A stretch of DNA of 64,000 nt from Streptomyces sp. SID13031. GTDB lineage: Bacteria > Actinomycetota > Actinomycetes > Propionibacteriales > Kribbellaceae. Below the pieces are notes generated by a model, which worked only from the letters and a program-made list of their open reading frames with translations, ran no database searches and was not told the DNA's origin. Numbering within the stretch: position 1 is the stretch's first letter; each line of letters begins with the position of its first letter. A program made the translations under genes and the position numbers. This document shows positions 29,601 through 49,025 of this stretch, piece after piece. Where the stretch lies: positions 1 through 64,000 of the forward strand of contig NZ_JAAGLV010000008.1 in assembly GCF_010548305.1 (NCBI RefSeq). The letters are read 5' to 3'.

Positions 29601-31762
29601 GGCTCGCGCTCGAGGACCAGCCGGGCAGCGGCCGCGCCGATGTCGAAGTACAGGCCGACCAGTTCCAGCCGGCCGGCCTCCTCGGCCTTGCGGACGCAGG
29701 CGAAGCTGCGCAGATTCTCCAGCTGGACCGCCACGTTGGTGACGGACAGCTTGTCGGCCGGTGACAGTTTGATGCCCGTCACCGGGTCGATGATGTCGGG
29801 CAGCGCGGCGGACCGGCGGACCGACTTCTCGAGATGCTTCAGCCAGGTCCGCAACGCGGAACCGTCCTGACCCGATGCCCCCAGCGCGGCTCCGGCCGCA
29901 CCGCAGTGCGAGTGACCGCAGACGACGATCTGGGCGACGCCCAGTACTTCGACCGCGTACTCGACCGCCGCGTCGACAGAGTTGCTGTTCGACCCGTACG
30001 GCGGGACGAGGTTGCCCACGTTGCGGACGCAGAACTGGTCGCCCGGTCCGGTCGTGGTGATCATGTTCGGCACGATCCGCGAATCGGCGCAGGTGATGAA
30101 CAACTGCGTCGGTTTCTGGCCGTCGGCCGCGAGCCGCGCCATCATCGGCCGGATCGGATCGGCCGACGCCTCGAACTCGCGGATCCCGTCCAGCATCGCG
30201 GCCCGCTGGTCGAGCTCCGGTACCACCTGGTGCTGCGGCTGCCAGGGGATGATCCGGCGCCCGATGTCGCCCTTCATTGCGGCCCGGAACGCCGCCCGAT
30301 TGAGGACGACCGAACCGCCGCGCGCGAGATGCCCGCGTCGCCAGTCCTCGATCGCCTCGTACGCCGCGTGGTCCAGGTGGTTGACCTGGAGATCCACCTT
30401 GACGGCCGCACCTACCGGGATAGTGCGCAGCGTCCGGATCAGCGACGCCACCCCGAGGAAGACCAGCGTGCCGCGGATCCGGACGACCCACACGCCGTCC
30501 TCCTCGGTCGCGGTGACCGTTGCCTTGGTCAACCGGTAGAGCACCCGGCCGAGCGCGAGGACGAGCCCGGCGAGCACTCCCTCGGCCAGCCCGAGAACGG
30601 CGACGCCGGCCGCCGTCACGACGTACACGAGAAGCTCGTCGTGACGCCGAAGGGTTCGGATGTGGGCCATCTGGACAAGCCGCAGGCCGGTGACGAGCAG
30701 GACGCCGGCCAGTGCGGCCATCGGGATCAGCTCGAGCATCGCGCCCGCGGCGAGCACGAAGACCGCGATCCAGATGCCGTGCAGGATCGCCGACGCCCGG
30801 GTGCGGGCACCCGCGGCGACGTTGGTGGAACTGCGCACGATCACCCCGGTGACGGGCATGCCGCCGAGGGCGCCGGAGATCGCGTTCGCGGCGCCCTGGC
30901 CGATCAGTTCGCGATCGAGGTTGCTGCGCTTGCCGCGATGAAGCTTGTCCACGGCAACGGCCGAGAGCAGCGACTCGACGCTGGCGACGAGTGCGACGGT
31001 CAGGATGGCCGTCGCGATCTGGAGCGGGCCGCCGTGCGGCACCGCGGGAGGGATGAGCTCCTTCAGGGGCGAGTCCGGCAGGTTGACGCGGGTGACGTCG
31101 ACCATGAACGTGGCGGCCAGCGCGGTGACGGCGACCACCGCGACCAGCGGCGCGGGAACGATGCTGACCCGGGGCAGTCTGGGCCAGACGAGCAGGATCA
31201 CGACGGTCAGGATCCCGACCAGTACGGAGCCGGCGTGATGGGCCAGCAACTGCTCGGGAAGCCCTGCCACGTTGGCGATCAGGGAACTCTGGGCCTGGCC
31301 GCCGAGCACCACGTGCAGCTGCTGGACGGCGATGGTGACACCGATTCCAGCCAGCATGCCGTGCACCACGGCGGGGGACAGGGAGAGGGCGAGCCGGCCG
31401 ATGCGGGTGACGCCCAGCAGGATCTGCAGGAGGCCGGCTGCGCAGGTGATACCCGCGGTGGCGGCCCAGCCGAACTGCGTGGCCAACCCGGCCACGACGA
31501 CCGTGAGGCCGGCGGCGGGGCCGCTGACCTGCAACGGGGAGCCGCCGAGCGCGCCGGCGACGATGCCACCGACGACGGCGGCGACGAGCCCGGCGATCAG
31601 CGGGGCTCCGGATGCTGCGGCGATCCCCAGCGACAACGGGATCGCGATCAGGAAGACGACCAGCGAGGCCGGTACGTCATGTCGAAGGATGGACCTCCAG
31701 GAACTGCGGTCGCGCGCAGGCTCGCCTGAAGGCGGTGAGTGGTTGTGAGAGATGCTCGGCAC
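29540..31762 (-). CDS. SulP-family anion transporter fused to beta-carbonic anhydrase
   Basis: A 740-residue protein. The first 400 residues are a SulP/SLC26 transporter (SWRSILRHDVPASLVVFLIAIPLSLGIA, about 11-12 membrane helices, ALGGMPVTGVIVRSSTNVAAGAR in the transport core), followed by a STAS-like region (VWVVRIRGTLVFLGV). The C-terminal 190 residues are a beta-carbonic anhydrase with Cys558-x-Asp-x-Arg (CADSR), His617 and Cys620 (GHSHCG). It should couple bicarbonate or sulfate transport to carbonate chemistry, as in known SulP-CA fusions. GTG 31762 has GGAGG five bases upstream; the longer frame to 32329 is not needed. Confidence 0.9.
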   Translation of the reverse strand: MPSISHNHSPPSGEPARDRSSWRSILRHDVPASLVVFLIAIPLSLGIAAASGAPLIAGLVAAVVGGIVAGALGGSPLQVSGPAAGLTVVVAGLATQFGWAATAGITCAAGLLQILLGVTRIGRLALSLSPAVVHGMLAGIGVTIAVQQLHVVLGGQAQSSLIANVAGLPEQLLAHHAGSVLVGILTVVILLVWPRLPRVSIVPAPLVAVVAVTALAATFMVDVTRVNLPDSPLKELIPPAVPHGGPLQIATAILTVALVASVESLLSAVAVDKLHRGKRSNLDRELIGQGAANAISGALGGMPVTGVIVRSSTNVAAGARTRASAILHGIWIAVFVLAAGAMLELIPMAALAGVLLVTGLRLVQMAHIRTLRRHDELLVYVVTAAGVAVLGLAEGVLAGLVLALGRVLYRLTKATVTATEEDGVWVVRIRGTLVFLGVASLIRTLRTIPVGAAVKVDLQVNHLDHAAYEAIEDWRRGHLARGGSVVLNRAAFRAAMKGDIGRRIIPWQPQHQVVPELDQRAAMLDGIREFEASADPIRPMMARLAADGQKPTQLFITCADSRIVPNMITTTGPGDQFCVRNVGNLVPPYGSNSNSVDAAVEYAVEVLGVAQIVVCGHSHCGAAGAALGASGQDGSALRTWLKHLEKSVRRSAALPDIIDPVTGIKLSPADKLSVTNVAVQLENLRSFACVRKAEEAGRLELVGLYFDIGAAAARLVLEREPYLVRADEELATTAPPPADT

Positions 31763-35140: not shown

Positions 35141-36733
35141 ATGGCCCGTGTGAGGCGGGCCGGCCCGAACGGGAGGGGATTGATCATCAACATTTCACGC
35201 AAGTTCGGTCGTACGGCGGTGGCCGTGACCGGAGCCGCGACGCTCGTGGCACTCGCGGCGGGGGCCGCGGGAGCCGCGACCTCGACCACGCAGGCAGCCG
35301 CCGAGCCGCAGTTGAAGCTCGTCGCCGGCGCCACCGAGGTGACGCTGGACCGGTACCCGGAGGGCGGTGGCGTCGTCCTGGACCTCGGCACCCACCTGGT
35401 GGCCGGGAAGAACCCGATCGAGGTGCGCGCGACCCGCAAGACCTACAACGACCCGGTCGTCGCGAACCAGATCGTCAACGGGAAGCCGAAAGCCCTGCCG
35501 AAGGGTGCGGTCACGGACTTCGGTGGCCTGGCCAAGTTCCTGCACCTGACCATCACCGATGCCAAGGGTAAGAAGGTCTACGACAAGGACCGCAGCTTCT
35601 GCCTCAACGGCGAGGGTTCGCGGACCCGGCCGGACGCGCCGGCCACCTCGCCGTACCCGTCGGGATGCGGGGGGAACCCGTTCACGCTCGGCGCGGTCTG
35701 GGGCCTGCAGGCCGGCTGGTCGTCGAACACCACCAGCTACTACAACAACGAGGAGGTGGACCTGCCGGTCGGCAAGTACACCGCCAAGGTGTCGGTCAAC
35801 AAGGTCTACAAGGACTACTTCAAGATCGGCGCCTACGACTCGGCCGTGACGGTCAACGTCACCGTCAAGGACGTCGAGGACTGTCACGGTGACGGTCACA
35901 CCGACGGCTGCAAGCAGGCGTTCGCGCAGGCCAAGGCCAAGGCGCTGACCAACGCCGGCGTCGCGTCGAAGACTGCCAAGACCGCGGCGAAGCCGCACGC
36001 GCAGCGGCCGGCCGGGAAGGGCGCGGTGCCGAAGGGCCCGAAGCCGGACCTGCGGTCGGTACCGGCCTGGGGGATCGAGATCGCTCCTGGCGACGAGGGC
36101 ACCCCGGATGCCGACAAGGACTTCCTGGCCTTCTCGGCGACTGTGTGGAACGCGGGTCCGTCGCCGCTGGTGCTGGACGGGTTCCGGCAAAAGGGCAAGG
36201 ACCTGATGGACGCGTACCAGTACTTCTACGACGCGAACGGCAAGGAGATCGGCTACCAGAACACCGGCACGATGGAGTGGGACCCGCGCGAAGGCCACAC
36301 CCACTGGCACTTCACCGACTTCGCCCGCTACAGCCTGCTGAACGCCAAGCAGACCGAGGTCGTCCGCAGCCAGAAGGAGGCCTTCTGCCTGGCCGCGACC
36401 GACGCCATCGACTACACGGTCAAGAACGCCAACTGGAAGCCGGACAACACCGACCTGCACACCGCCTGCGGCGGCCACACGTCGCTGTCGGTCCGCGAGG
36501 TGCTGGACGTCGGATCCGGCGACACCTACGCGCAGTTCCGGCCCGGTCAGTCCTTCGACGTGACGAACCTGCCGAACGGTGAGTACTTCATCGAGGTACT
36601 GGCGAACCCGGAGAAGAAGCTGTTCGAGGCCAGCACGACGAACAACGTGGCCCTCCGCAAGGTGATCCTGGGCGGCACCCTGCACCACCGCACGGTCAAG
36701 GTTCCGCCGGTCGGCGTGATCGACGCTCCTTGA
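35141..36733 (+). CDS. Secreted bacterial lysyl oxidase-like protein
   Basis: A 530-residue exported protein. The N-terminus has a basic stretch, a hydrophobic segment (about 25-46) and a cleavage-like AAGAA. The C-terminal third contains the lysyl oxidase copper motif His386-Thr-His388-Trp-His390 (HTHWHF) followed by the DFARYSL strand. Bacterial members oxidise lysyl side chains or other amines. A spacer (residues about 265-300) is lysine/alanine-rich. An alternative TTG start near 35177 with GGGAGG directly upstream would remove about 12 residues. Confidence 0.8.
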   Translation: MARVRRAGPNGRGLIINISRKFGRTAVAVTGAATLVALAAGAAGAATSTTQAAAEPQLKLVAGATEVTLDRYPEGGGVVLDLGTHLVAGKNPIEVRATRKTYNDPVVANQIVNGKPKALPKGAVTDFGGLAKFLHLTITDAKGKKVYDKDRSFCLNGEGSRTRPDAPATSPYPSGCGGNPFTLGAVWGLQAGWSSNTTSYYNNEEVDLPVGKYTAKVSVNKVYKDYFKIGAYDSAVTVNVTVKDVEDCHGDGHTDGCKQAFAQAKAKALTNAGVASKTAKTAAKPHAQRPAGKGAVPKGPKPDLRSVPAWGIEIAPGDEGTPDADKDFLAFSATVWNAGPSPLVLDGFRQKGKDLMDAYQYFYDANGKEIGYQNTGTMEWDPREGHTHWHFTDFARYSLLNAKQTEVVRSQKEAFCLAATDAIDYTVKNANWKPDNTDLHTACGGHTSLSVREVLDVGSGDTYAQFRPGQSFDVTNLPNGEYFIEVLANPEKKLFEASTTNNVALRKVILGGTLHHRTVKVPPVGVIDAP

Positions 36734-36804
36734 TCCGGTCTCGCTTCCCCGTTGCGCTCGGGGACGCGAGCCCGCTCCTTGGCAGCCCCTGACGGGTTGC
36801 CCAC

Positions 36805-36835
36805 AAGGCGGCCCTTCCTGGGGGAGGGCCGCCTT
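36805..36835 (+). terminator. Hairpin terminator after the lysyl oxidase gene
   Basis: AAGGCGGCCCT (36805-36815) and AGGGCCGCCTT (36825-36835) form a perfect 11-base stem with a nine-base loop, 72 bases downstream of the stop. Confidence 0.75.
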
Positions 36836-36885
36836 CGCGTTGCCCGACTAGGCTGGCCACCTTCGAGGACCACGGGAGGCTCACG

Positions 36886-37584
36886 ATGACCGAGGAACGC
36901 CGGATCGAGGCCGAGATCCCGCTGGACGCAACACCCGAGCAGGTCTGGGACGCGATCGCGACCGAGGCCGGGCTGACCGCATGGTTCGCGCCGATGGACC
37001 CGGCGCCGGACGAGAACGGGCGGATCGCCGACGGCGAAGTACTGCGCTGGGAGCCGGGTCGCGGGTTCGCCATCCAGACCGGGACGGGTGCGTTCGAGTA
37101 TCTGATCGAGGCGCAGGACGGTGGCTCGACGGTCCTGCGCTTCGTCCAGACCGGGTTCCAGGGAGACGACTGGGAAGCGGAGTACGAAGCGACCGCGCGC
37201 GGCTGGGATCTCTACTTCCACACCCTGCAGGTCTATCTGTCCGGCTTCCACGGTGAGCCGGCCACCTATGTCGTTGCCGAAGGCCCCGCCTGGTCGGGCA
37301 CGGCGGAGGCCTGGCAGAAGCTGTGCGAGGCCGTCGGTGGCGAGGTCGGCGCGAAGGTCGAGCTGGACGTCTACGGGCTGGGAGTGGTGGTCGGCGAGGT
37401 CGACTACCAAGGTCCGAGCCATCTGGGCATCACGACCGAGCACGCGCTGCTGCGCTTCCACGACCGCAGCCTGCTCGGCATGCCCGTTGCCCTCGGCCAC
37501 CATTACTTCGGTGCGAACCAGGATGCCAAGCGCCTGGAGGACGCCTGGCAGTCCTGGCTGACCGAGTTCTTCCTGGCTCAGTGA
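36886..37584 (+). CDS. SRPBCC/AHSA1-domain protein
   Basis: A 232-residue protein with a START-like AHSA1 fold: EIPLDATPEQVWDAIATEAG at the N-terminus, FAPM, the strand DGEVLRWEPG and LRFVQTGF. The second half is a helical extension of unknown function. Such proteins bind hydrophobic ligands or act in stress response. ATG 36886 follows a GGGAGG site. It is convergent with the MFS gene, overlapping it by seven bases. Confidence 0.75.
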   Translation: MTEERRIEAEIPLDATPEQVWDAIATEAGLTAWFAPMDPAPDENGRIADGEVLRWEPGRGFAIQTGTGAFEYLIEAQDGGSTVLRFVQTGFQGDDWEAEYEATARGWDLYFHTLQVYLSGFHGEPATYVVAEGPAWSGTAEAWQKLCEAVGGEVGAKVELDVYGLGVVVGEVDYQGPSHLGITTEHALLRFHDRSLLGMPVALGHHYFGANQDAKRLEDAWQSWLTEFFLAQ

Positions 37585-43616: not shown

Positions 43617-43709
43617 CGAGCATCCTGGTGAAATGCTCGCTCGGGTTGCTCCAGCCTCCTGGTGAAAGGCTGGAACGATCTGGCCCCAGCCTCCTGGTGA
43701 AAGGCTGGG
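43617..43709. repeat. Three tandem hairpins with an identical nine-base loop
   Basis: Hairpins at 43617-43639, 43651-43673 and 43685-43709 all have the loop CCTGGTGAA. The stems are CGAGCAT/ATGCTCG, CCAGCCT/AGGCTGG and CCCAGCCT/AGGCTGGG. Loop starts are 34 and 35 bases apart. Stem sequence differs while pairing is kept, so RNA structure seems selected. They lie between the convergent phenolic-lipid operon and PucR gene. Confidence 0.75.
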
Positions 43710-43808: not shown

Positions 43809-45362
43809 TCAGTGCTCCGTGCGAACAGCCGCGATCTGCAGCTGCAGCGCCAGCCGTTCACGGGGGTTGGTCAGGTCCAGCCGGGCGATCTCGCCGATCC
43901 GTTTCATCCGGTGCCGCAGCGTGTTCGTGTGCAGATGCAGCTCCCTGGCCGCCTGCTGCGGCTGGCCGGGATAGTTCAGCCAGGCCTGCAGGGTGTCGAC
44001 GAAGGCGGTGTCGTGCTCGATGTCATGCCGTAACAAAGTCGCGAGCGGCCCGTCCAGCTTGGTCGTGTCAAGCGAGGTCACCGCCCGATGAACGGTCAGG
44101 ATGTGCCAGGCCTGCTCCACCCGCAGCGCCGGGCCAGGCGCGAGCCCACGGCGTACCAGGCCTAGTAGCTCGACCGCCTCAGCCCGCGAGCTGGGGAGGT
44201 CTGCGGCACCACGGGCACGCCCGCCGGCCGCGGCCGTAGTACCGGGGGACTCTTTGGTGAGGTCTATGACGAGTTTGCGGAGCCAGCGCCAGGAGCCGGG
44301 GCCGTCGCCGTCCGAGACGACTGCCAGGACAGTCCCGTCCAGGTCGGCCAGCTGTGGCTCGCTCCATCCATGGCGGCGACCAGTGGACTCCCAGAGGTCC
44401 AGCTCCTGCGGTACGTCGTACGCGCCGGGTGAACCGAGCGCGACCACCCGCCACGGCGGCGCCGGCAGCCGTACGTCGAGCGGAGCGTCGGGGGAGAACT
44501 GCCGCAGGACAGTGCGCAGCCGGTCGATCGCACTGCGCCTGGCGACGTCAGCCTGAGCCCTGAGCCGCAGTAGGTGCAGCGCGAGGACAGATGCGGCGTT
44601 ACTGAGCTCAGTAGTCACCTCTGCACTCACAGGACCATCCACCACGGCCCAGATGGACCCCAGCCACTCACCACCCGCCCGAACCGGTACTACGAGACGC
44701 GGGCGGATCCCATTAGGCCCGTCGGGGACCAGGAAGGGCTCACTCGACCGGGCGAGGCGCCGGAAGATCCCTCGGGCCCTGAAGTGCGCTATGACCTCAG
44801 CAGGCACCCGACGGCCAACGATCGTCGACACCCGGGTTGGGTCGGTGTCCGTGAGGTTATGGAGGCTCGAGTAGGCAAGCACTCGGGACTGGTTGTCCTC
44901 GATCGTCACTGGAGCGTCGACGATGGCGGCAGCGGCATCGGCCAGTGCGAAGAGCTCCTGATGTACTCCGGCGTCACCTGCGACGGGGGAGTCCGGAGAG
45001 GCCGCCCTGTCGATTACGCCTCGCAGTAGCCACACCACGTGGGCCCAGGTGACCGTCGGCTGCAGCGCGACCAGGGTGATGTGCCTCTTCTCCGCCTGGG
45101 TCACCACGGCGGGGTCCCGGGCGAGTGTTGTGCGCAGGATGATGCCCGAGGCGCTACCGACGGCACAGCGCTCCACCAGCTCTACTGCGTCCTCCGAGCT
45201 GCCCAGGCCGAAGCCCAGGACCAGGTCGCCCGCCTGGCCGGTCGAGTCCTCCTGCGGGTCGGCCAGGAAAACGTCACGCACCTCACCGTCGCCCTGGCCG
45301 GCGACGACGATCTCGAAAAGGGCCGGTCCGACGGCAACGACCAGGTCAGGGACGGTGATCAT
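43809..45362 (-). CDS. PucR-type transcriptional regulator (CdaR-like)
   Basis: A 517-residue regulator: a PucR-like N-terminal sensory region, a GAF-like middle region (SSEPFLVPDGPNGIRPRLVVPVRAGGEWLG) and a C-terminal PucR/CdaR helix-turn-helix ending QPQQAARELHLHTNTLRHRMKRIGEIA. It starts at the ATG at 45362 without an obvious ribosome site and may be leaderless. It is divergent from a DadA-like oxidase, with a perfect palindrome between, which suggests control of amino-acid or amine catabolism by that substrate. Confidence 0.85.
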   Translation of the reverse strand: MITVPDLVVAVGPALFEIVVAGQGDGEVRDVFLADPQEDSTGQAGDLVLGFGLGSSEDAVELVERCAVGSASGIILRTTLARDPAVVTQAEKRHITLVALQPTVTWAHVVWLLRGVIDRAASPDSPVAGDAGVHQELFALADAAAAIVDAPVTIEDNQSRVLAYSSLHNLTDTDPTRVSTIVGRRVPAEVIAHFRARGIFRRLARSSEPFLVPDGPNGIRPRLVVPVRAGGEWLGSIWAVVDGPVSAEVTTELSNAASVLALHLLRLRAQADVARRSAIDRLRTVLRQFSPDAPLDVRLPAPPWRVVALGSPGAYDVPQELDLWESTGRRHGWSEPQLADLDGTVLAVVSDGDGPGSWRWLRKLVIDLTKESPGTTAAAGGRARGAADLPSSRAEAVELLGLVRRGLAPGPALRVEQAWHILTVHRAVTSLDTTKLDGPLATLLRHDIEHDTAFVDTLQAWLNYPGQPQQAARELHLHTNTLRHRMKRIGEIARLDLTNPRERLALQLQIAAVRTEH

Positions 45363-45403
45363 GAAGGTTATTGTGCTCTTGCCACTGTCCTTGGGGCCAG
45401 CTG

Positions 45404-45419
45404 TGGTGCGATCGCACCA
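45404..45419. promoter_or_regulatory. TGGTGCGATCGCACCA operator between PucR and DadA-like genes
   Basis: A perfect 16-base palindrome centred at 45411.5, with an additional half-site GCACCAT at 45441-45447. It lies in the 91-base divergent interval and is the natural PucR site. Confidence 0.75.
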
Positions 45420-45453
45420 TGACAGCGGTTCCGGGCGGCCGCACCATCGATAC

Positions 45454-46722
45454 ATGGTCGCTTCCGTGCAAGGCACTCACATCGTCCCGGACCGGGTCGC
45501 CGTAGTCGGCGCCGGCATGGTCGGTCTCGCCACCGCCTGGTTCCTCCAGGAGGCCGGCGTAGAGGTCACCGTGCTTGATCGCGAGGGTGTCGCCGCGGGC
45601 GCCTCCTGGGGCAACGCGGGCTGGCTGACCCCCGGCCTGGCGACTCCGCTGCCGGAGCCGGCGGTCCTCAAGTACGGCGTCCGTGCGGTCCTGAGCCCCT
45701 CCTCGCCGGTCTATGTACCGCCGACGGCGAGCCCGCGGCTCATCTCGTTCCTGACCCGCTTCGCTCGCAACAGCACCGCCGGACGCTGGAAGACCGCGAT
45801 GGAGGCGCTCGTCCCGATCAACCGGCAGGCGCTCAACGGCTTCGATGCGCTGGCCAAGGCGGGGGTCGAGGCCGAGACGTACGAGGCCAAGTCGTTCCTC
45901 GCGGCGTACCGGACCGAGGCCGAGCGCTCGGTGCTGCTCGAGGAGATCGAGCACATCCACGCGGCCGGCCAGGGGATCGAGTTCGAGGCCATCACCGGTG
46001 ACGACGCTCGCGAGATCGAGCCGTCGCTGTCGGACGAGATCGGTGCGGCGATCCGGCTGCACGGTCAGCGCTTCATCAACCCGGGCGAGTACGTGAACAT
46101 GCTCGCCGACTCGGTCCGCGCTCGTGGCGGCAAGATCGTCACCGGCGTGACGGTGAAGGACATCGTGGACGAGATCCGCGGCGTCCGGATCGTCACCGCC
46201 GACGGCGAGAGCACGCCGTACGACGCGGTCGTGATGGCCACCGGCGCGTGGCTCGGCGACCTGGCCCGGCAGTTCGGCGTACGGACCGTCGTGCAGGCGG
46301 GTCGCGGCTACAGCTTCAGCGTGCCGATCGCGCACGTACCGGCCGGTCCTGTCTACTTCCCGGCGCAGCGGATCGCCTGTACGCCGCTGGGCGACCGGTT
46401 GCGCGTGGCCGGGATGATGGAGTTCCGCAAGCCCGACGCGAAGCTCGACCCGCGCCGGATCGACGCGATCGTGGAGGCGGCCCGGCCGCTGCTGCGGGAC
46501 GCCGACCTGGACGCTCGCACCTTCGAGTGGGTCGGCCCGCGTCCCTGCACCCCGGACGGCCTGCCGCTGATCGGCGCCACCTCCTCACCCCGCGTCTTCG
46601 CCGCCGGCGGCCACGGCATGTGGGGCATCACCCTCGGCCCGATCACTGGCCAACTGCTCGCCGAGACCATCACCACCGGCCGTACGCCGGTCGAGCTGGC
46701 CCCCTTCAACCCACTCCGCTGA
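45454..46722 (+). CDS. D-amino-acid dehydrogenase-like FAD oxidoreductase
   Basis: A 422-residue DadA/DAO-family flavoprotein. The N-terminal FAD motif VAVVGAGMVGLATAWFLQEAG (15-35), the GASWGNAGWLTPG loop and the C-terminal PRPCTPDGLPLIG-AAGGHGMWGITLGP region are typical. It should deaminate D-amino acids or oxidise secondary amines, passing electrons to the chain. The ATG at 45454 has little room for a leader, so it may be leaderless. It is controlled from the shared promoter region with PucR. Confidence 0.85.
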   Translation: MVASVQGTHIVPDRVAVVGAGMVGLATAWFLQEAGVEVTVLDREGVAAGASWGNAGWLTPGLATPLPEPAVLKYGVRAVLSPSSPVYVPPTASPRLISFLTRFARNSTAGRWKTAMEALVPINRQALNGFDALAKAGVEAETYEAKSFLAAYRTEAERSVLLEEIEHIHAAGQGIEFEAITGDDAREIEPSLSDEIGAAIRLHGQRFINPGEYVNMLADSVRARGGKIVTGVTVKDIVDEIRGVRIVTADGESTPYDAVVMATGAWLGDLARQFGVRTVVQAGRGYSFSVPIAHVPAGPVYFPAQRIACTPLGDRLRVAGMMEFRKPDAKLDPRRIDAIVEAARPLLRDADLDARTFEWVGPRPCTPDGLPLIGATSSPRVFAAGGHGMWGITLGPITGQLLAETITTGRTPVELAPFNPLR

Positions 46723-46742
46723 CCGGCCACACCTGACCACAC

Positions 46743-47582
46743 GAGTCCGGCCACAGACGGACTCCTCCCAGCCCGGCTGCAGCCGGCCACCCAGAGCACG
46801 GCTGCAGCCGAGCTCACCACCCAACCGACCACCCTCGAACTCCCGTCGCGGCCGAGTCGTACCCCAGCCGCCTCACCGCGACGGGACCAGGCGGCCTCCA
46901 CCCTGCAGGAGACCACCAGCCGGCCCCGTACATCTCCCGGGGCTCCGGCAGCACCACCCCGGGTCCGCGATTCCGCGGCAACCCGGCGCACCACCCGATC
47001 CGCTCACCACGGACCGGTCAGCACCACCCGGCCCACCGTGACCCCACGGAGCCGGCGCACGACCCCGGGTTCCCTCACCACGGACCCGGCAGCATCACCC
47101 GGGCCACAGTCCGGCGTACGACCCGAGTTGCTCACCACGGCTCGGTAGCACCACCCGCGACTCCCGCCCTGCCGGGAAGCCGCAGCACCACCGGCCCCGC
47201 CTCAGCGGGAGCCAGCACCACCAGCGACGTCCCGGCCCCTGTCGGGAAGCCGCAGCACCACCCGGTATCCGCACGGCGCCTGCTCTGTGGATACCGGCCG
47301 CAGCACCCGCGACTCCCGCCCAGTTGGGAGACCCGCGGTGCAGGACCCGGGTTCCGCGAAGCCTCACTCGCGGAACCCGGCAGCGGTCCACACCGAGCGC
47401 CTGGCGGGGACCGCGAGTGCATGACCCGGCTCCCGCGATGCCGCGCGGGAGCCGGCCGCACCACCTGGTACTCCGACCCCGGAGTACCAGCGGTCCTCGG
47501 GCGGAGGACCGTCGCACCGCCTGCCTCGGCCAACGACGCCGAGCCAGAAGAGAGCGTGGCTCCCCTCGGGGAGCCACGCTCT
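46743..47582. repeat. Non-coding array of about 17 different hairpins with CAGCACCACC-type linkers
   Basis: Between the DadA-like gene and trxA lies a stretch with no credible gene and a series of stem-loops about 30-45 bases apart. Clear examples: 46743-46764, 46773-46786, 46841-46886, 47065-47089, 47264-47295, 47349-47378 (11 bp), 47426-47455 (12 bp), 47465-47490 (11 bp), 47491-47511, 47551-47582 (up to 15 bp). Stem sequences all differ; the spacers repeat GCAGCACCACCCG or close variants at about 46949, 47019, 47089, 47146, 47182, 47212 and 47252. Three loops read CTCACCAC. It is not a CRISPR array. Confidence 0.75.
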
Positions 47583-47605
47583 GTCTACGTAAGCTCGGTG
47601 AAAAC

Positions 47606-47646
47606 AGAAGCGGTCCGGACCTGATGACCAGGTCCGGACCGCTTCT
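47606..47646 (-). terminator. 18-bp hairpin terminator of the thioredoxin gene
   Basis: Arms 47606-47623 and 47629-47646 pair perfectly around a five-base loop. On the reverse strand a GTTTT run follows, giving an intrinsic terminator for trxA; on the forward strand it may also stop read-through from the hairpin array. Confidence 0.85.
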
Positions 47647-47671
47647 TCAGCTATGACTGCAGCGCTGAGGC

Positions 47672-48061
47672 TCAGTGCGTGTGCGGCTCCGTGCCGTGCT
47701 CGGCCTCGTGGGCCGCGATCTGCGCGCGGACCTCTTCCATGTCGACCGCGCGAAGCTGGGTGATCAGGTCCTCCAGCGCCGCGGCCGGCAGGGCGCCGGG
47801 CTGCGAGTACAGAACGACACCGTCGCGGACAGCCATCAGCGTCGGGATGGAGCTGATCTGGAACGCCTGGGCCAGCTCGACCTGGGCCTCCGTGTCCACC
47901 TTGCCGAAAGTGATGTCCTCATGCGTCTCGGACGATTTCTCGAACACCGGTCCGAACATCTTGCACGGACCGCACCACTCCGCCCAGAAATCCACCAGGA
48001 CGAGCCCGTCGGAACCGACGGTCTTGTCGAAGTTCTCCTGGGACAGCTCGACCGTTGCCAC
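47672..48061 (-). CDS. trxA: Thioredoxin
   Basis: A 129-residue thioredoxin with the active site WCGPC (Cys30, Cys33) in VDFWAEWCGPCK and the cis-proline SSIPTLM. The C-terminal 25 residues (AAHEAEHGTEPHTH) form a histidine-rich tail beyond the usual fold. It reduces protein disulfides in the cytoplasm. GTG 48061 has GGAGG about six bases upstream. A strong terminator follows. Confidence 0.9.
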   Translation of the reverse strand: MATVELSQENFDKTVGSDGLVLVDFWAEWCGPCKMFGPVFEKSSETHEDITFGKVDTEAQVELAQAFQISSIPTLMAVRDGVVLYSQPGALPAAALEDLITQLRAVDMEEVRAQIAAHEAEHGTEPHTH

Positions 48062-48149
48062 TACGACCTCCGAAGTTAGACGAATACCCCCTACACAACA
48101 GCACGGGAGCCGTCAGTGTTCCCGGCCCCGCGCACCGCGGTACGGGGGA

Positions 48150-49025
48150 TCAGAACGGCATGTCGGCGAACGGGGACTCGTAGTCCCGCACCTCGTCAAG
48201 GATGGCAGCCGCGTCCTCCGGACTGAGCCCGGCGCGCTCCTGCTCGGCCTGAATCATCTGCTTGAGCAGTTTCGTCTCACCGGCGGTCGCGAGCCCGGTG
48301 ATCTCCGGATGCCCGTTCAGCAGCCAGGCTGTGGCGGCCGTCACATACCGCTGGTCGTCGAAGGGCTGGTACCAGGTGTCGTACGCCTTGTTCTCGCCTT
48401 CGCGCCAGTTCCGCCGGGCGATCATCTTGATCGTCATCAGCGCAGCGTCACTGGCCTGGACGGCCTCCACCAGCGCTGCGTAGTCGTCGGCGTACCGCGA
48501 ATCGGTGGACAGCTTGTAGTTCAGCGGCGTCAGCACGCTGTCGAAGTCGAACCGGCGCAACCCCTCGCGATGCACCGACGGCGCCTCGGCGGTGTGCCCG
48601 GTGATGCCGATCGCCGACACCATGCCCTCCTCCTTGGCCCGGATCGCGGCCTCGAGCGAGCCGCCCTTGCCGGTGACCAGGTCGAGGTTCTCCAGATCGC
48701 AGACGGCGTGCATCTGGATCAGGTCGAGATGATCGGTCTGCAGCCGCTCCAGTGAGCGGTTGATCTCCGACCACGCCTCGTCGTACGTGCGCCGTCCGGT
48801 CTTGGTGGCCAGGAAGATCCGGTCCCGGATCTCCGGCATCCGCGGCCCGAGCCGCAGCTCGGCGTCGCCGTAGTCGGCCGCCACGTCGAAATGGTTGATC
48901 CCGGCGTCGAGCGCCTCCTGGATCGAGGCGTCGGCGCGGTCTTGGTCCACTCCGCCGAGCGATGCCGCGCCGTAGATCAGTACCGAGCTCTGGTGCTCCA
49001 GCCGCCCGAGTCGACGAGTCTCCAT
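48150..49025 (-). CDS. Aldo/keto reductase-like protein
   Basis: A 291-residue (beta/alpha)8 protein: METRRLGRLEHQSSVLIYGAASLGG, then HFDVAADYGDAELRLG with the catalytic Asp/Tyr region, ATKTGRR (Lys) and HLDLIQMHAVCD (His). The C-terminus EQERAGLSPEDAAAILDEVRDY differs from classical AKRs, as in a common actinobacterial subgroup. ATG 49025 has an AAGGA site. A GGTCAAA/TTTGACC inverted repeat lies 28 bases upstream. Confidence 0.82.
   Translation of the reverse strand: METRRLGRLEHQSSVLIYGAASLGGVDQDRADASIQEALDAGINHFDVAADYGDAELRLGPRMPEIRDRIFLATKTGRRTYDEAWSEINRSLERLQTDHLDLIQMHAVCDLENLDLVTGKGGSLEAAIRAKEEGMVSAIGITGHTAEAPSVHREGLRRFDFDSVLTPLNYKLSTDSRYADDYAALVEAVQASDAALMTIKMIARRNWREGENKAYDTWYQPFDDQRYVTAATAWLLNGHPEITGLATAGETKLLKQMIQAEQERAGLSPEDAAAILDEVRDYESPFADMPF

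Follow-up and report, generated by a model that had tools for sequence, protein, structure and literature searches.

A fast-evolving array of hairpins with a constant linker in the 3' region of dadA in Kribbella, a possible zone of transcription termination and RNA protection

What kind of element fills the gap between two convergent genes with hairpins whose stems keep changing while the linkers between them stay recognizable? The gap in question lies in a window of 64,000 nucleotides, the whole stretch of DNA analysed here. It is bounded on one side by a gene for a dadA-like FAD-dependent D-amino-acid dehydrogenase (45484-46722, + strand), recognized by the Pfam DAO profile PF01266 (E 5e-67) and matching PRK00711 with an E-value of 2.5e-66, under the NCBIfam cut-off; dadA occurs in all 38 of the 38 Kribbella genomes. 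Convergent to it is the thioredoxin gene trxA (47672-48061, - strand; TIGR01068 above cut-off). Between the dadA stop codon and the hairpin 3' of trxA no gene was found. That hairpin (47606-47646, - strand) has an 18-bp perfect stem followed by TGTTTTC on the - strand; as one is found directly 3' of trxA in nearly all Kribbella species examined, we assign it to trxA as its terminator and place it outside the array. On the other side of dadA and divergent from it is a gene for a PucR-type HTH regulator (43812-45476), likely the regulator of dadA, and a 35-bp tandem repeat of 2.5 copies is situated between the 3' ends of neighbouring genes (43619-43706 of the window).

The hairpin array (46743-47582, + strand; ~20 hairpins) begins after the dadA stop codon. 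When the interval 46723-47660 was folded alongside dinucleotide-preserving shuffles of both strands, the + strand gave -509 kcal/mol as against -396 +/- 6 in the shuffles (z -19), and the - strand gave a z of -14. When 1.26 Mb of this genome was scanned for folding in a strand-neutral way, windows from the array ranked 1, 2, 6 and 7 of 8345, making it the most structured stretch in the DNA so scanned. Within the window the next hairpin-densest stretches are 30404-30903 and 36695-37194. The left block of the array (46840-46952, + strand), kept in G024, G004 and G042 with a mean column identity of 91%, includes two interleaved palindromes, CCCGTCGCGG..CCGCGACGGG and GCCGCCT..AGGCGGC. The core (46948-47262, + strand) comprises ~9 hairpin units at a spacing of ~30-56 nt, with a GCAGCACCACC-like linker after each, and both the number and the identity of these units vary among species. 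The right block (47257-47460, + strand) contains five hairpins that can be aligned in four species, and the last of these (47426-47455) is identical in all four. It is followed by a perfect 11-bp hairpin (47465-47490, + strand) found at this place in this species only: by comparison, G024 and G042 have no counterpart there and G004 has other tandem units.

The linker GCAGCACCACC is present in the array in three exact copies, in 8 copies with at most one mismatch (0.13 in shuffles) and in 14 with at most two (1.2 in shuffles). None is found on the - strand of the array, and over the seven species with such arrays 57 linkers lie on the dadA-sense strand versus 0 on the opposite strand. Elsewhere in the genome the linker is not enriched (131 occurrences versus 147 in the control). 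A second motif, CTCACCAC, occurs in 4 copies, 3 of them inside hairpin loops, and a Chi-like octamer, GCTGGTGG, in 0 forward and 2 reverse copies. The first-pass annotation, made from the letters of the window, had described about 18 hairpins over 46743-47646 with stems often of 7-18 bp and in many cases perfect, a recurring linker and three loops of the same sequence, and had named folding of both strands against shuffled controls as one check. The folding excess, the stem lengths in that span and the three shared loops were all recovered. The count is instead 23 stems when 4 or more pairs are required, or 22 when 5 or more are; the array stops at 47582, short of the trxA hairpin; and the regular linker is limited to ~46948-47465, the two ends (46743-46940 and 47465-47582) being formed by hairpins without the standard linker.

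Arrays were detected at the same site, 3' of the dadA-like gene, in 7 of the 38 Kribbella species, namely this genome, G024, G004, G042, G044, G006 and G045. The DNA identity of the homologous arrays is 77% for G024, 71% for G004 and 84-87% over two pieces for G042, while the more distant G006 and G044 have the same site and the same linker with other stems. Units are gained and lost rapidly: their number per array ranges from ~7 to 31, with near-identical tandem copies in G004. For searching only, and never for counting pairs, we also prepared a covariance model that joins a 6-bp hairpin to the linker; it rests on 20 units whose loops had been trimmed, and in which a few bases had been idealised, by hand. 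Of its four best places, one lay in G044, two in G006 and one in G045; the last of these, absent from the training set, lies 397 nt after dadA and belongs to an array of ~20 hairpins. Neither the linker pattern nor the covariance model revealed another array locus in the 38 genomes, only matches at the dadA locus rising above background. The other Kribbella species have few or no hairpins in the dadA-trxA gap, with G015 and G019 entering this comparison through the DNA and covariance searches only. In the dadA tree, built without G045, the remaining six array species fall into two nearby groups, requiring 2 changes of state. One further candidate, a 29-bp hairpin repeat GCGGCGCTTGCGCCGGACCCAGCACCACC in at least 4 copies with an array-like linker (G044:C1:461618-461743, L277), proved to be an ordinary tandem repeat of identical copies at another locus.

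To which of the two convergent genes the array belongs is indicated by a closing hairpin (47551-47582, + strand), a 14-bp perfect, U-less stem formed by AGAGCGTGGCTCCC/GGGAGCCACGCTCT, which is probably the 3' end of the dadA transcript. A strong hairpin of the form GAGAGCGTGGYTCCC..GGGARCCACGCTCTC (variants allowed) follows either the array or the bare dadA stop codon in the array species and their neighbours; it has been deleted in G042. Its distance from the dadA stop codon is 16 nt in G020, 65 in G043 and 117 in G049, and 621 in G045, 828 in this genome and 1069 in G006. In the species examined that carry inserted genes ahead of trxA (G024, G004, G020, G006 and G043), the closing hairpin and the array stay on the dadA side, a synteny suggesting that the array is an extension of the dadA 3' region. 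The structured non-coding RNA that had been envisaged here finds support only within the dadA 3' region, with neither an independent RNA gene nor a sigma-70-like promoter being found in the region.

Based on these comparisons of sequence, we tentatively propose, at a probability of roughly 0.45, that the array is a fast-evolving multi-hairpin 3' UTR of dadA acting as a U-less, possibly Rho-assisted zone of termination and RNA protection, and we favor this over a neutral satellite, a pure rut platform or a sponge. The unit would consist of a 5-13 bp hairpin of free sequence followed by a single-stranded C/A-rich linker with the consensus GCAGCACCACC. Transcription of dadA would enter the array, where each hairpin, by analogy with the tandem I-shaped terminators of actinobacteria, might slow or stop RNA polymerase without a U-tract, perhaps assisted by Rho loading on the C-rich linkers. 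The hairpins may further shield the end of the dadA mRNA and prevent collision between the convergent transcripts of dadA and trxA. Tandem duplication would multiply the units, and compensatory or template-switch mutation would restore pairing, such that the stems drift and the shape stays. Consistent with this, there are 0 sites resembling U-tract (L-shaped) terminators in 46500-48200, none of the seven arrays contains TTTT, and stable hairpins lie less than 15 nt apart 3' of the stop codon, as expected of U-less hairpin-cluster terminators. Multi-hairpin U-less termination clusters have been described across bacteria, including M. tuberculosis (PMC8355165), and Rho prefers C-rich unstructured RNA, with actinobacterial Rho being suited to GC-rich RNA (PMC4167861). 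The unpaired bases of the sense strand are indeed C-rich and G-poor as in rut sites, with 47-54% C and 9-13% G in the seven arrays and 52% C and 10% G in this one, although this richness is partly due to a skew of C over G that places the array in the top 2% of 800-nt windows. Against the proposed 3' UTR role, linkers confined to one strand are also expected from common descent, and G020 and other array-less relatives do well with a closing hairpin 16-120 nt after dadA, indicating that the array is not needed for termination.

A comparison of pairing with sequence bears on whether the hairpins are maintained at all. In the right block of this genome, G024, G004 and G042, 95.5% of pairs are kept and 5 pairs are doubly changed in a compensatory manner, a number reached in 8 of 500 shuffles and compared with 0-1 in slid controls. 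Over the whole array, this genome and G004 differ by 8 compensatory changes against 2.7 in a base-matched null (P 0.0005), and a second whole-array comparison gave 6 against 1.3 (P < 0.0005); the excess is weaker for G042, which has fewer units in common. Compensatory changes between near species are ~3- to 4-fold over chance, and broken pairs are below expectation over the whole array. The rate of change is 7-15% in stems, roughly half of the 20-33% seen in those unpaired bases that belong to neither loops nor linkers. Linkers, in the alignable parts, change no more slowly than stems but at a similar rate, which counts against the 3' UTR reading. When distant species are compared, the match of stem 5' arms is 0.567, as against 0.566 for shuffled letters, and that of the 3' flanks 0.690-0.754, as against 0.620-0.645; the covariation test between G006 and G045 was mixed, with an alignment that is poor outside the left end. 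Since near species keep the pairing and distant stems are at the shuffled level, hairpins are inherited as paired structures in the short term, whereas in the long term only the linker and the shape remain. The seven-species comparison thus bears out the earlier view of a rapidly diversifying repeat family with changing stems and constant linkers, and the compensatory changes agree with its argument for selection on structure. Of the two results that the first-pass annotation had named as counting against it, lack of a folding excess and lack of similar arrays in relatives, neither was obtained, and its idea stands.

The same pattern admits a serious rival, a structure-preserving neutral satellite, which we consider possible but less probable than the proposed termination and protection zone. 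Here replication slippage would multiply units in a convergent gap free of constraint, and template switching at hairpins would repeatedly restore perfect palindromes in an array without function. Template switching has been put forward as a way in which perfect RNA hairpins arise and are kept (PMC8794818), with paired changes in perfect stems as a feature in common with the array, and could yield part of the compensatory pattern without selection; that mechanism concerns single hairpins, whereas the array has many units and constant linkers. The species-specific perfect hairpin at 47465-47490 is a candidate case of it, and the wide range of unit number, the near-identical tandem copies in G004 and the lack of the array in most congeners all fit such a satellite. 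What it accommodates poorly is the persistence of the linker across species whose stems are no more alike than shuffled letters, the slower change of stems relative to the remaining unpaired bases, the placement of all linkers on one strand and the hairpin at 47426-47455 unchanged in four species.

An unlikely but more novel possibility is a new kind of repeat, in which selection would act on single-stranded GCACCACC between hairpins of any sequence, so that the dadA transcript would offer Rho, or some other RNA-binding protein, a multivalent platform whose dose could be tuned through copy number. Less probable still is a pure rut platform, in which the C-rich, G-poor linkers would form a primary Rho site, the hairpins would gather the linkers, and Rho would end dadA transcription before trxA. 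The base composition of the unpaired sense-strand RNA resembles that of rut sites, the linker is rich in YC, the region is without a U-tract terminator, and the known preferences of Rho are in keeping with the idea. However, any sequence skewed to C over G yields C-rich unpaired bases, the hairpins should hinder Rho translocation, and rut sites are not known to consist of strong hairpins in series. A sequence-specific RNA- or DNA-binding array, be it a sponge or a nucleoid site, in which a putative factor would read GCACCACC beside a hairpin, accounts for the constant linker with free stems and for a copy number resembling a titratable array, but is improbable given a linker that is not enriched elsewhere, the lack of a second locus and the absence from most congeners.

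Among known systems, REP/BIME elements are similar in that their palindromic units, too, form arrays in convergent gaps and at 3' ends. The stem sequences of REPs are conserved, and their copies are numerous and dispersed. The array differs in its free stems, constant linker and single locus per genome, and was not identified as REP/BIME given that 5' arms are at the shuffled-letter level between species and no dispersed copies occur in the 38 genomes. Closer in kind are the hairpin-cluster terminators, tandem U- or I-shaped and U-less in actinobacteria (Gupta and Pal 2021, PMC8355165), with which the array shares closely spaced hairpins 3' of a stop codon, the lack of poly-U and a location in a convergent gap; the published clusters mostly have two hairpins and become exponentially rarer with size, as opposed to ~20-30 here, where in addition the linker is constant and stem sequences diverge until they resemble shuffled letters. 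Clusters of hairpins at 3' ends are already known, whereas the literature searched does not describe arrays in which ~20-30 hairpins share a constant linker, but not their stem sequences, at a single orthologous site. Other identities were rejected: an integron attC array, since the array contains a single RYYYAAC, GTTRRRY is absent from it and such core sites are at chance level in the locus; a CRISPR, which has long identical repeats and non-palindromic spacers of equal length, as against an 11-nt degenerate linker and palindromic variable parts of unequal length; a known RNA family, with no Rfam 15 match at gathering score for this array and its six relatives; tRNA or tmRNA, with no ARAGORN match; and a protein-coding repeat, in that the array is overlapped by minus-strand ORFs of 133 and 160 aa but its unit lengths vary (e.g. 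26-29 nt in G006 and 30-56 in this array) and are not multiples of three.

The combination of kept pairing, free stem sequence and a constant unpaired motif would amount to a natural experiment on selection in a 3' UTR. With seven species carrying ~7-31 units and close relatives without the array, termination, mRNA decay and the mutation of hairpins by template switching versus selection become testable at one locus, in a genus in which transcription termination is little studied.

Separately, we noticed an intergenic multi-hairpin block of ~360 nt with five UGAGG(A/U) loops (G000:C113:201240-201600; L304:3241-3601, L182:1240-1600). It is present in 38 of 38 Kribbella genomes with 76-94% identity over most of its length, shows compensatory changes at 9 pairs in six species, has no Rfam match at gathering score, and is a candidate genus-wide structured RNA. 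Possibly by chance, the array loops CTCACCAC / CCTCA (46995-47145) and the UGAGG / GUGGUGAG loops of this block are complementary; the complementarity is exact over 8 nt in G049, G004 and G020 and shorter in this genome.
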